In this document: piece by piece, positions 27,438 through 31,332 of the stretch | How positions within the stretch are numbered: position 1 is the stretch's first letter | Layout of the letters: every line of letters starts with the position of its first letter | Assembly: GCF_002286735.1 (NCBI RefSeq) | Contig: NZ_NRTA01000040.1 | Coordinates: 1 to 34,013 of the forward strand | Direction of reading: 5' to 3' | Length of the DNA: 34,013 nucleotides | DNA from: Leptolyngbya sp. BC1307 | Lineage (GTDB): Bacteria; Cyanobacteriota; Cyanobacteriia; Phormidesmidales; Phormidesmidaceae | Notes under the pieces: model-generated | Told to the model about the DNA's origin: nothing | Databases searched by the model: none | The model's input: the letters and a program-made list of their open reading frames with translations, nothing else | Program-made: the position numbers and the translations under genes

Positions 27438-28289
27438 ATGTTTTATTTCAATAGCTCAGAGTCCGGGCAGTTTACTGGGCAGTTTAAAAGTTCCCTGCCC
27501 ACTCAGAATGTGACGGGTTTTCCGATCTCAGCTTTGTCTTTTGACAATCAGGTGAGTGTGATTATGCAGTGGGCGATCGCGCGTTCGAGTCGTGTGGTTT
27601 GTGTCTCTAATGTGCATATGCTGATGGAAGGGCACTGGCAGCGTGAGTTTGCCAGAGTGCTAGTCAATGCTGACCTGCTGACGCCAGATGGGATGCCGCT
27701 GGCCTGGATGACGGGTCTGATGAAAGGGCAACCGCAAGATCGGGTGGCGGGGATGGAGCTGATGTTGGCGCTATGTAAGCAAGCGCAGGAGTCAGGCGTC
27801 AGTGTCTTTTGCTTAGGGTCTACGCCTGAGACGCTGGAGACGATTCGTCAGAAGCTGGCGAAAGATTTTCCTGAGTTGCAAGTGGTGGGGATGGTATCGC
27901 CGCCGTTTCGGGCGCTGAGTGAAGAGGAGGATGCAGCGATCGCCCATCAGATTAATGAAAGTGGCGCAGGCTTGGTGTTTGTCTCTTTGGGTTGCCCAAA
28001 GCAGGAGCGCTGGATGGGTGAGCATCGGGGGCAGGTGCAGGCGGTGATGGTGGGCCTGGGCGGGGCTTTCTCGGTGTATGGGGGTGAGAAGAAGTGGGCT
28101 CCGGTGTGGGTGAGAAAGTATGGGCTGGAGTGGTGCTACCGGCTGAAGCAAGAGCCGGGGCGGCTGTGGAAGCGCTATGCAAGTACGATTCCGCCGTTTT
28201 TGTGGCTGGCGTTTAAGCAGGTGGTGAAGATGCGGCTGGGGATGAATCCTGATCTGTCTTTGCGGCAGCAGTGGGTGAGGAATAGTTAA
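27438..28289 (+). CDS. WecG/TagA/CpsF-family glycosyltransferase
   Basis: 283 residues of glycosyltransferase family 26. Hallmarks: CVSNVHMLMEG, the catalytic-region TPDGMPLAW (Asp84), GVSVFCLGSTPETLE, and VFVSLGCPKQERWM with GGAFSVYGGEKKWAPVWVRKYGLEWCYRL. It transfers a UDP-activated amino-sugar such as ManNAc to a lipid-linked acceptor in capsule or exopolysaccharide assembly. It faces the Wza/Wzc operon, which suggests a shared pathway. Its TAA overlaps the stop codon of the convergent MNT gene inside the same TTAA tetramer (28286-28289). Confidence 0.92.
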   Translation: MFYFNSSESGQFTGQFKSSLPTQNVTGFPISALSFDNQVSVIMQWAIARSSRVVCVSNVHMLMEGHWQREFARVLVNADLLTPDGMPLAWMTGLMKGQPQDRVAGMELMLALCKQAQESGVSVFCLGSTPETLETIRQKLAKDFPELQVVGMVSPPFRALSEEEDAAIAHQINESGAGLVFVSLGCPKQERWMGEHRGQVQAVMVGLGGAFSVYGGEKKWAPVWVRKYGLEWCYRLKQEPGRLWKRYASTIPPFLWLAFKQVVKMRLGMNPDLSLRQQWVRNS

Positions 28290-28642
28290 GAATGCGCTGC
28301 TGTCTGCTTTATCCAACAAGTTTCTTCGACGAGCGTTTTGTAAAATCGAGGTTGCTGGGTAGGTAGCTGCTCCCATTCGTGAACTGTATATACCTGCGCT
28401 TCTACCGGGACGGGAATCGTACTAAAGTCCCAAAGATTGTAACGGTGATTAAATGGCAGGTTGCTTTCTGTGACGATGATGACGACATCTAGATCGCTAC
28501 CGACGCCAGCGTCATCGCGAGCATAGGAGCCGAAGTAGCCAGCAGACAGTACGGTAGATGCTGCGGTACCAGAAGCTGTGCCCAGTTGCCGGACCCATTG
28601 ACTGATGGCGGTGTGAACCTGGTGTCGGTTAGGCCATTTCAT
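28286..28642 (-). CDS. MNT-domain nucleotidyltransferase (antitoxin of HEPN-MNT)
   Basis: 118 residues from ATG 28642 (ATG 28672 would add ten and overlap the upstream gene by 44 nt; the shorter start gives 14 nt). The nucleotidyltransferase signature G-S-x10-D-x-D is exact (G38 S39 ... D50, D52) within GSYARDDAGVGSDLDVV. In known HEPN-MNT pairs the MNT enzyme AMPylates and silences the HEPN RNase. The overlap with the HEPN gene and shared strand fit that system. It stops in the shared TTAA with the WecG-like gene. Confidence 0.85.
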   Translation of the reverse strand: MKWPNRHQVHTAISQWVRQLGTASGTAASTVLSAGYFGSYARDDAGVGSDLDVVIIVTESNLPFNHRYNLWDFSTIPVPVEAQVYTVHEWEQLPTQQPRFYKTLVEETCWIKQTAAHS

Positions 28643-29024
28643 GATCGACGAATTCAACGATCTCACTGGCATATTTAATGGCCTCCTGGCTTTGCAATAT
28701 TCCGTAATGGTCGAAAGGGGAGCCTTCTGGATGGCTGTCTGGATATCGGGTGGGGATGTAAAAGTTGTCTAGCACCTTGGCTTTTTCAAGGAGTAAAGTA
28801 GGTATCTCTGGGGCTTGGTCTGGCGGTAGCTCGGTAAACAGGCGTGCTACTAAATGCCCCCAAGCTTCTTGTCCGAGTGCTAGATGTAGCGCTTTAACCG
28901 CTTTTTCGGCAGCTTGGTGTGCAGCAAAGCAAGCCCATTCGTATCGTTCGTCTGCCTGAGATGCTTGCGCCTGCTGTAAATCGCGTTTGGCCTGCCGCAA
29001 CCAATCTAGCGCTCGGTTTGGCAT
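28629..29024 (-). CDS. HEPN-domain protein (toxin of HEPN-MNT)
   Basis: 131 residues, mostly helical. The N-terminus WLRQAKRDLQQAQASQ and the AAHQAAEKAVKAL helix are the classic HEPN start. The RNase motif R-x4-6-H is present as R-Y-P-D-S-H (R93 to H98). It is a predicted metal-independent RNase that becomes toxic when not modified by its MNT partner. It is upstream of and overlaps the MNT gene by 14 nt, the standard operon order. Both genes look intact, making this the only complete toxin-antitoxin pair in the window. Confidence 0.85.
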   Translation of the reverse strand: MPNRALDWLRQAKRDLQQAQASQADERYEWACFAAHQAAEKAVKALHLALGQEAWGHLVARLFTELPPDQAPEIPTLLLEKAKVLDNFYIPTRYPDSHPEGSPFDHYGILQSQEAIKYASEIVEFVDHEMA

Positions 29025-29166
29025 GAGCCTGAACCTGTGGATGTTGGTATCTCTAGTTTAACTTGGCAGGCTGCGATAGCTTCTGTCACTTTGCTTACTC
29101 GCTAAGGCGGCTTGAGTAGAAGGCTGTTCGATACAATAGTGGGTGAGCGCTTATTTACTGAAGGCT

Positions 29167-29733
29167 ATGGTTGCTGATTCAATTCGCTGGACGGTAAGAG
29201 ATTTGGACGCGATGCCGAAGGCTGGCGGCTGGCGGCGTTACGAAATTATCGAGGGAGAATTGATCGTGACTCGTGCCCCGCATTTTCGGCATCAAAGAGC
29301 GGGTGGCCGTATTCACGTTGAATTAACGAATTGGTCTGACCGGACGGGGCTTGGTGAAGCTGTCGAAGCACCTGGCGTAATTTTCACTGAGGCGGATGCG
29401 GTGATTCCGGATGTGGTGTGGGCGAGCAATGAACGAATAGAGAAGGGGATGGATGAGGCCGGGCACTTCACAATTGCGCCGGAGCTGATAGTGGAGGTGC
29501 TTTCGGCAGGTGATGCGAATGAGCAAAGAGACCGGGAGACGAAGCTGGCGCTGTATTCACGGTATGGTGTGCCGGAATATTGGATTGTGAACTGGCGGCT
29601 GAAGACTATTGAGATTTATCGGCGGCAGTCAGCTCAGCTTCAGCTAGTGACGACGCTGCTGCCCGAAGATATGTTAACTTCGCCGATGCTGCCAGGGTTT
29701 AGCTGTGAGGTTGCGGCAATCTTTGATAAGTAG
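29167..29733 (+). CDS. Uma2-family (DUF820) PD-(D/E)XK nuclease-like protein
   Basis: 188 residues from ATG 29167 (a GTG at 29143 is an alternative, adding eight residues). The restriction-like core is visible: YEIIEGELIV, the PDVVW strand (Asp82), ELIVEVLS (Glu110), and the ETKLALYSRYGVPEYWIVN signature that defines Uma2. These proteins occur in many copies in cyanobacteria, often near mobile DNA; activity and target are not established. The 3' end runs to within 36 bp of the HNH remnant on the other strand. Confidence 0.88.
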   Translation: MVADSIRWTVRDLDAMPKAGGWRRYEIIEGELIVTRAPHFRHQRAGGRIHVELTNWSDRTGLGEAVEAPGVIFTEADAVIPDVVWASNERIEKGMDEAGHFTIAPELIVEVLSAGDANEQRDRETKLALYSRYGVPEYWIVNWRLKTIEIYRRQSAQLQLVTTLLPEDMLTSPMLPGFSCEVAAIFDK

Positions 29734-29768: not shown

Positions 29769-29855
29769 TCATTTTCTTTCAGGCGAGTGACAGTATTCGC
29801 ACAGGGCATTGGCTCGCCTGCGGACTCGCTGACGCAGGAGATCGTTGATGGTCAT
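29769..29855 (-). pseudogene. HNH endonuclease, truncated after CEYC (module copy 2)
   Basis: 28 codons from ATG 29855, overlapping the upstream stop by ATGA (29852-29855). The peptide fits L-R-[RQ]-x-V-x2-R-A-x3-C-E-Y-C (LRQRVRRRANALCEYC) and continues HSPER, a usual continuation of this HNH family, then K and TGA at 29769-29771. The rest of the gene is missing; the Uma2 gene end lies 36 bp further on. It cannot be functional. Confidence 0.75.
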
Positions 29856-30103
29856 GCTGGTGCAATCAGGCGGGCATTGAGGTGGGTGAAGAAGCGCTCT
29901 AGCTCATTGATACTGTCGAGTTTGTCTGCTTCTTCTGAAGATAAGGCATCCAGTTCGTTTTTTTTCAAAAGCTCTTCTAATTTGGCCTGAAGTGCTTCGG
30001 TAAACTTGAATAGCCAGAGTCCTTCAATTGGCTTGTAATCCTTAAATTGATGCTCCCGCAGCCACCGGATCAACGCACCAGGTGATTTTGGGATTTTGGA
30101 CAA
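29852..30103 (-). CDS. Antitoxin-like partner of HNH endonuclease (module copy 2)
   Basis: 83 residues as given, from a TTG at 30103; the frame contains no ATG, so the true start is uncertain and may have been lost. It shares the leucine/acid pattern of copy 1 over 44 residues without gaps (LQAKLEELLKKN, then ALSSEEA, then ELERFFTHLNARL). The stop overlaps the HNH ATG by 4 nt. Directly upstream lies a transposase remnant whose reading frame runs into the first codons, so the N-terminus may be chimeric. The function is inferred from position only. Confidence 0.6.
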   Translation of the reverse strand: MSKIPKSPGALIRWLREHQFKDYKPIEGLWLFKFTEALQAKLEELLKKNELDALSSEEADKLDSINELERFFTHLNARLIAPA

Positions 30104-30477
30104 AGTAGTTTAATCGCTCCATCTGGCTGCGAGCTTGGCAGTCCCGATGACTCAGATAGGGAAACCAATGGGCTCAGACAGGCACTTTGAGCCTGTAAAA
30201 TCGCAGCGACATTCTCACAGAAGACTGGGTGCATCCCGGTTGTGTAACCCTCACCCTAAATCCCTCTCCCTGAGGAGGGAGAGGGACTTTGAACTCCGGC
30301 TCTTTCCCCGAGGGAGGAGGAATTGGGGGATGAGGGGCCAAATTTGCAAAAGTGGGATGCACCCCACAGAAGACAGAAGACTTGTAGATGTCGTTGGTCT
30401 TGGGGACAAATCCATTGACTTAGTTAAGCTGGCAGTTGTTGAGCTTGCAGCTGACGATAAAGCTGGGGGACTGACAT
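30081..30477 (-). pseudogene. IS4-like transposase N-terminal remnant, interrupted by a MITE
   Basis: From ATG 30477 the frame reads MSVPQLYRQL, stops at 30424-30426, and continues in frame LSQWICPQDQRHLQVFC up to the inserted element. On the far side it resumes ENVAAILQAQSACLS; after a 1-nt shift it gives WFPYLSHRDCQARSQMERLN and YFVQNPKI. This order of blocks matches the N-terminus of cyanobacterial IS4/IS701-type transposases as I recall them. It carries a nonsense codon, a 139-bp insertion and a frameshift, and breaks off where the antitoxin-like gene begins. Confidence 0.6.
30226..30364. mobile_element. 139-bp MITE-like element with 11-bp terminal inverted repeats
   Basis: The ends gggtgcatccc (30227-30237) and gggatgcaccc (30354-30364) are exact inverted repeats. 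Directly outside lies the 10-bp direct repeat cacagaagac (30216-30225 and 30365-30374), the look of a target-site duplication. The interior holds C- and G-rich purine/pyrimidine tracts able to fold (ccctctccc ... gggagaggg around 30270-30290). There is no coding capacity. The insertion is in the transposase remnant: reading across it resumes that protein. A 7-bp tandem repeat (agaagac) follows the right copy. Confidence 0.8.
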
Positions 30478-30570
30478 CGGATTATTTCTTGTTTGGAAAC
30501 TTGAGCATCCCATGTCTTCCCCCGATTTGTCACCCTTGTCTCACCGGGAGATTCCCTATATATCGACTCT

Positions 30571-31332
30571 TCAGGACTGTTCTGCACCACTAAGCTCAGC
30601 AACTTCAGATTTGCGCTTCCGCAGCAGACCCAAACCCATGCCCACTAGACCGGGCAGCAGTGCCGGTGTCGGGATTGCATCTGCATTGACAGTTGCCATG
30701 TCAAACCGCCAGGAACCATCAGTAGCGTAGGTGCCACCAGTCCCCGCATAACCACTTGCGCCCGGAGCAAAAGCAGACACAATGCGGAATGTAAAGTTTG
30801 CGTTGTCGTTTACACCCAAAATACTAGAGAGATTAAACATATTGTTGTTAGACCAGGTATTGACGGAACCCACAACCTGTGAGCCAAAGTCTACAAAGTT
30901 TGTCCCATCTGATGAGTACTGAAACTGTGAGAACTTAGAGGAAGTGGCGCTAAAGTACTGGTCAAAATTGACCCGAACGTTTTGCTGCCCAACTGTAGAA
31001 ACCTTGAACTCAACACCAGCCGTCTTGTTTAGAGCAGTTGCAGCCGGATAGGTAGTTGTGTCGAGAGCAGAATCGTCGCCGACCCGTGGATCTGAAGACA
31101 TCCCGCCATCCTCAGCCGTAGCAAACGTACCTGTAGTCCCACCGATACGCATGACAGTGCCAGTTCCAATATTGGGGATCAGGGTGCCTGTTGCAGGATT
31201 AGCATCAGGGACAGGTGTGTTGAAGTTCCACTGAGTCAGCGTTGCAGCTTGAGCCGAACCTTGCAGCACTGCGATGCCTAAGGCGGCACCAGCAGCAATC
31301 ACGGCCACTTTGTTAGTTAAATGGAGAGTCAT
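30571..31332 (-). CDS. PEP-CTERM (PTPA-type) sorted secreted protein
   Basis: 253 residues. Signal peptide: VAVIAAGAALGIAVLQG with cleavage after AQA (~residue 29). The middle is Thr/Asn/Gly-rich and beta-strand-like, without cysteines. The C-terminal sorting signal is PTPALLPGLVGMGLGLLRKRK: a PTPA motif, a hydrophobic helix and a basic cluster, followed by a 12-residue tail. The cyanobacterial PTPA form replaces PEP. Such proteins are processed by an exosortase and often associated with exopolysaccharide, which fits the EPS genes 3-8 kb to the left. A strong AAGGA ribosome site lies 9 nt before the ATG. Confidence 0.85.
   Translation of the reverse strand: MTLHLTNKVAVIAAGAALGIAVLQGSAQAATLTQWNFNTPVPDANPATGTLIPNIGTGTVMRIGGTTGTFATAEDGGMSSDPRVGDDSALDTTTYPAATALNKTAGVEFKVSTVGQQNVRVNFDQYFSATSSKFSQFQYSSDGTNFVDFGSQVVGSVNTWSNNNMFNLSSILGVNDNANFTFRIVSAFAPGASGYAGTGGTYATDGSWRFDMATVNADAIPTPALLPGLVGMGLGLLRKRKSEVAELSGAEQS

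Follow-up and report, generated by a model that had tools for sequence, protein, structure and literature searches.

A MITE with ISKra4-type ends and a TM/PIT-pair core nested in an IS4-type remnant of Leptolyngbya sp. BC1307

The window, a 34,013-nucleotide stretch of DNA that represents contig C40 of the 4.9-Mb draft genome of Leptolyngbya sp. BC1307, carries a MITE with ISKra4-type ends and a core made of a pair of TM/PIT motifs, which was very probably inserted by the transposase of such an IS into an earlier IS4-type IS (Table 1). In a complete relative (genome G057), three or more end types that are unrelated to one another enclose this same core, and for each type some of the copies have target duplications. 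We give about even chances to the proposal that the core is a promiscuous cargo, which unrelated cyanobacterial transposons, those of ISKra4 type and of several other end types at the least, each took up and at which ends have been exchanged by recombination.

Table 1. Features of the nested element and its surroundings, in window coordinates
Feature	Position	Strand	Remarks
83-aa ORF	29852..30103	-	5' end overlaps IS remnant; no Pfam match
IS4-type IS remnant	30081..30594	-	end TTCTGCACCACTAAG (on +) 30580-30594; transposase start 30477; broken near 30081
Left target-duplication copy CACAGAAGACT	30216..30226	+	11 bp on best parse
MITE	30227..30364	.	138 bp; ISKra4-family-type ends; relatives hold homologous copies flanked by target duplications of 8-9 bp
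Left terminal inverted repeat GGGTGCATCCC	30227..30237	+	perfect 11 bp
89-bp core, inverted pair of TM/PIT-type motifs	30248..30336	.	right-hand motif degraded here
Intact TM-type motif CCCTCTCCC-loop-GGGAGAGGG-loop-GGGTGAGGG	30248..30285	-	pattern match
Right terminal inverted repeat GGGTGCATCCC	30354..30364	-	perfect 11 bp
Right target-duplication copy + extra 7-bp tandem AGAAGAC	30365..30382	+	flank alignment with relatives

The element and the insertion sequence that it interrupts

The window copy displays the defining characters of a MITE, namely a short length, the absence of a transposase gene and terminal inverted repeats. Nezha, a cyanobacterial MITE, is likewise small, with inverted ends and no gene, and the likeness to it is one of description only. 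Matches to GGGTGCATCCC with up to one mismatch occur in the window only at the two ends of the element; as two such matches also arise in 8 of 100 shuffles, the 11-bp ends alone are not decisive. The sequence-only reading had delimited a 139-bp element with a 10-bp repeat on both sides. The element is real, and measures 138 bp by the ends of its family, the difference being the T at 30226, which had been counted in and which intact relatives assign to the host gene. The same reading expected the element to recur elsewhere. A second full copy is absent from the window's genome, which features one full copy along with a 22-bp right end alone at contig C61 (an 11-bp match at C67 is probably a chance one), and copies are found across relatives, with matches at E ≤ 0.001 in 43 of 58 genomes (counting that of the window), many of them to the core only.

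On the minus strand, the MITE is flanked by blocks of a transposase, MSVPQLYRQLQ..DQRHLQVF and then ENVAAILQ, with a frame shift near 30174. A tblastn search of the window with an intact transposase from a relative (L039) recovers 30477-30376, 30222-30175 and, in a different frame, 30167-30081, and two IS copies from genome G056 (L037 and L054) align with the DNA of the window at 30083-30210 and 30381-30594; these pieces and alignments bear out the placement of the element inside an IS4-like transposase remnant. The aligned blocks are separated by 170 bp in the window and by 14 bp in L037, so that the window has 156 additional bp, equal to 138 + 18. Taking out the MITE and the 18 bp makes the window equal in length to the L037 site, without gaps, and the restoration of the frame by excision, which had been proposed from the letters of the window, is thereby recovered in frame and length against intact relatives. 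L037 and L054 are alike up to TTCTGCACCACTAAG and divergent beyond it; these 15 bases are present in the window too, and we identify them as the end of the IS. The joined 59-residue peptide of the remnant has matches in 17 of the 58 genomes (own included), the best of which are 73-76% identical. The intact relatives L038 and L039 show DDE_Tnp_1 matches above the cut-off, and their best NCBIfam model is IS4_2, to which they score 114 and 110.7 bits, below the cut-off of 152; hence the remnant, itself too short to score, is named only "IS4-type".

Nested mobile DNA in the window is a correct observation, ordinary in itself. It is certain that the IS4-type IS came first and the MITE second. In the order proposed earlier, of IS arrival, IS decay and MITE insertion, the nesting upholds the precedence of the IS over the MITE and no more; decay before the MITE would be one possible order, the frameshift and the loss of the rest of the transposase being undatable. 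A 15-bp insertion in the remnant, which looks by eye like a tandem with 3 mismatches over its 15 bp, may be older than the MITE.

The genes on either side extend into the remnant. The 3' end of a gene at 30571-31332 runs into the IS end, so that the last residues of its product are IS-derived; it has no Pfam match, and the product looks like a PEP-CTERM protein. On the other side, the 83-aa ORF belongs to a cyanobacterial family: from about residue 24 onwards, it has matches among the small ORFs of 32 of the 58 genomes, own included. The remnant had been said to abut an antitoxin-like gene; it does abut and indeed overlaps this ORF, and "antitoxin-like" is a guess, for which neither Pfam nor NCBIfam offers support. 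At four loci with members of the family (L222, L223, L226 and L228), the adjacent ORF has, by eye, a CEYC..HNH-like pattern, and in the window no HNH-like ORF follows the 83-aa ORF. Further along lie a Uma2 family gene (29143-29733; Pfam), convergent to the 83-aa ORF, and nucleotidyltransferase and HEPN genes side by side (28286-29024; Pfam), which have the make-up of a HEPN-MNT toxin-antitoxin pair.

The partner IS and the target duplications

The complete genome G057 contains GGGATGCACCC 46 times (22 + 24), and a control pattern once. Twelve inverted end pairs in this genome, with ends GGGTGCATCCC and a spacing of 1182 bp, represent one IS, with 1181-1182 of 1182 bases alike, which is bordered by exact target duplications of 8 bp in 8 of the 12 copies and of 9 bp in two. 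Its ORF2, of 303 aa, reaches 267.8 bits against the ISKra4 model NF033572, above the cut-off of 205. In the copy at L057, ORF1 occupies 129-425 and ORF2 347-1255, the second overlapping the first in the -1 frame. A transposase specified by two ORFs that are joined via a -1 frameshift is described as a feature of the ISMich2 group (PMC3942029), and the G057 IS, placed by this -1 two-ORF feature only, would belong to that group. ISKra4-type genes are found inside such end pairs (at most 2 mismatches, spacing of 1.18-1.30 kb) at 11 of 30 loci from 10 genomes. Two among the named IS compared have like ends, ISOni1 (GGGTGCATCTCACTTTTGC; GGGTGCATCTC) and ISMic1 (GGGAGCATCCC), and related ends are also seen on unnamed IS of plasmids from Kovacikia minuta and Microcystis aeruginosa FD4. 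The ISMich2 group of the ISKra4 family (ISOni1, ISMic1) thus resembles the MITE family in its ends, GGGTGCATCYC or GGGAGCATCCC, and in its 8-9-bp duplication; unlike the IS of this group, which has two ORFs (in the G057 copy), the window MITE has no transposase gene and features the TM-type core between its ends.

We posit that a non-autonomous MITE with ISKra4-family ends would have inserted into an IS4-type IS already landed at the site, that its mover would have been an ISKra4 transposase acting in trans, and that the helper IS was likely once present in this lineage and has since been lost. The window's own genome has no IS in which we could find the 11-bp ends of the MITE: the G057 transposase protein retrieves only a broken piece, at C49, and the search for the ISKra4 family retrieves one intact ORF (C20:13911-15203), which is of another type and has no MITE-type ends within 1 kb on either side. 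This absence at C20 counts against the proposed origin. ISKra4 matches at 1e-10 are present in 34 of the 58 genomes versus 0 of the 14 control genomes. At that threshold, G036, G039 and G050 give no ISKra4 match despite their MITE/core matches (54, 338 and 502 candidates at first look, 14 of them scored per genome), and these three genomes likewise count against it.

To describe the duplications of the family, copies were collected, among the loci at hand, that have both ends with up to 2 mismatches, 100-200 bp apart, and core words present (n=67, including the window's). Exact duplications of 8 bp border 14 of these complete copies and those of 9 bp border 13, and duplications of at least 10 bp border none; shuffled pairs yield 0.18 and 0.23 exact duplications of 8 and 9 bp, respectively. 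The origin reading is weakened by the 40 of 67 MITE copies that have no exact duplication of at least 5 bp, by the 2 of 12 G057 IS copies that have none, and by the window copy, which shows no 8- or 9-bp match at its ends. The left flank in the window ends CACAGAAGACT and the right flank starts CACAGAAGACAGAAGACT; within these, CACAGAAGAC is seen at 30216-30225 and again at 30365-30374, where it is followed by AGAAGAC. This 10-bp direct repeat had been taken for the target duplication, a reading that we disfavour as it leaves the T at 30226 unexplained; moreover, every one of the 27 exact duplications in the family (n=67) measures 8 or 9 bp. Three parses of the right flank were weighed: 8 bp with a copied 10 bp, 9 bp with CA and 7 bp, and 11 bp with 7 bp. 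To judge from the letters of the flanks, what reads best is an 11-bp duplication to which a 7-bp tandem was added later, a history that would account for all letters with the fewest events; the 11-bp match has one mismatch, is exact if the 7-bp tandem is allowed for, and falls outside the 8-9 bp of the MITE family. Alternatively, a 9-bp duplication and two slippage steps would also account for all letters. The extra 18 bp at the right flank would hence have come from the 11-bp duplication (or 9 bp and slippage), and then from the 7-bp tandem, which on that parse would be younger than the MITE, being exact and present in only one copy of the duplication.

As the MITE sits within an IS4-type IS, and as duplications of 10-12 bp are usual in part of the IS4 family, the element could be imagined to derive from its host IS or to have been moved by the transposase thereof. 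This is extremely unlikely, given that the host IS end, which reads TTCTGCACCACTAAG in the window and in the two G056 copies, is unlike GGGTGCATCCC, that the MITE family duplicates 8-9 bp, and that the match to the ISKra4 ends is exact. An IS4-type origin was rejected on the difference of the ends, and the 11-bp ends, for which the sequence-only reading had proposed a search among IS copies, turn out to be those of an ISKra4-family IS. Insertion by an ISKra4-type transposase is the reading favoured by the match of the ends, the duplications of the family, the existence of a matching IS, the nesting and the MITE-free site that is intact in relatives.

A TM/PIT core shared by several end types

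The core contains CCCTCACCC..GATGAGGG. TM/PIT is an intrastrand triplex motif, in which a hairpin with a purine arm is joined by a third purine strand (PMC4666352; Hoyne et al. therein). Of two strict TM patterns applied to 97 loci, one matches 55 and the other 29, with 22 loci matching both. Among the aligned copies (27 of the 42 listed), the core is better conserved than the spacers adjacent to the ends. Base-pair covariation contributes -0.37 of -65.7 kcal/mol, with two-sided changes in 7 of 48 pairs, and with covariation so slight, the conservation seen is that of sequence and not of paired structure. The single strand of the MITE folds strongly and beyond chance, with z of -5.4 as DNA and -6.1 as RNA, as might be expected if it served here as a terminator or small RNA, or regulated the neighbouring ORF. 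We consider such a function very unlikely, in light of its location within a dead transposase, the absence of any Rfam family at the gathering score, the slight covariation, and the discussion in PMC4666352, according to which an earlier study saw neither promoter nor terminator activity of PIT motifs.

The E. coli TM/PIT and the cyanobacterial core share the architecture CCCTCTCCC-loop-GGGAGAGGG-loop-GGGTGAGGG and occur as inverted pairs of about 85 bp. The cyanobacterial core has its third strands outside and its hairpins inside, whereas the pair at 164547-164631 of E. coli MG1655 has the reverse arrangement, and the GGGTGCATC end is absent there. With the E. coli pair reversed and without these ends, we do not claim the same spreading route for E. 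coli. The E. coli TM motif has been shown to form a triplex in vitro, not in vivo, according to PMC4666352, whose passages on this motif report no association with transposons. Our literature search found no description of the 89-bp core in ISKra4-type or other MITEs, and an earlier one is possible.

G057 has 39 exact occurrences of a 16-base piece of the core, including five with ISKra4-type ends that had been examined earlier; the remaining 34 correspond to 33 loci. Of these, 19 are labelled ISKra4-type at both ends, five type 2 (GGCACT..) at both and two type 3 (GATGTGCAAC..) at both; the others have a label on one side only (five), on neither side (one) or a mixture (one, L260), with the qualification that the end types were first spotted by eye and then scored on the same loci, of which the labels are not independent. 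Shuffled left flanks give about 0.75 ISKra4 and 0.2 type 2 labels per 33. Type 2 ends are bordered by an 8-bp duplication at 4 of the 6 loci tested, exact in three and with a mismatch in the fourth, and type 3 ends at 2 of 5 loci with one mismatch allowed. Elsewhere, additional ends show a 6-bp duplication in L233 (GGCGTTGCTGAAC; 1 of 4 tested), a 10-bp duplication in L248 (CTACCGTGTATACATA; 1 of 5 tested) or none (L036, with GTTGACTGACAAAA ends). A further flank type in G039, AGTACA.., is not cleanly separable from the ISKra4 ends by the labels used. The type 2 MITEs of G057, with GGCACT.. ends, 8-bp duplications and the same core, comprise L255, L256 and L261-L264; we searched G057 for an IS behind these ends and found 10 end places, with no pair at IS distance. 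L260 is a hybrid with an ISKra4-type left end, a type 3 right end and the same core, which fits an exchange of ends at the core, a single and thin case. Tn3-derived TIMEs, as presented in PMC4133298, have one kind of end and different cores, and the situation here is the mirror case, with one core and different ends.

The occurrence of the core between unrelated ends, and without recognised ends in some genomes (e.g., L029, L030, L032, L034 and others), could also mean that mobility resides in the TM/PIT core, with the 11-bp ends being secondary. We regard this as improbable: 27 of 67 copies have duplications at the outer ends rather than at the core, none is discernible by eye at the edges of the core, and a core-less short MITE with exact ends was found in 0 of 11 genomes, so that no "empty" element attests the arrival of the core. 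Beyond cyanobacteria, nine loci were retrieved, with complete elements only in an Omnitrophota MAG (L110) and a Chitinophagaceae MAG (L166); both have ISKra4-type ends and a CCCTCACCC-type middle, contamination of the MAGs being possible, and L148 and L165 are, by eye, half elements from the same two MAGs. The phage search returned no match to the MITE, and the plasmid search returned four records, which match the core part only.

The TM motif pair in cyanobacteria is thus presented as a transposon cargo with more than one end type, which suggests how the repeat spreads. If the cargo proposal is true, it would explain how the TM/PIT repeats, abundant in cyanobacteria, have spread, and the structure of the core may favour its amplification; the finding makes both the spread of the repeat and any role of its structure in transposition directly testable.
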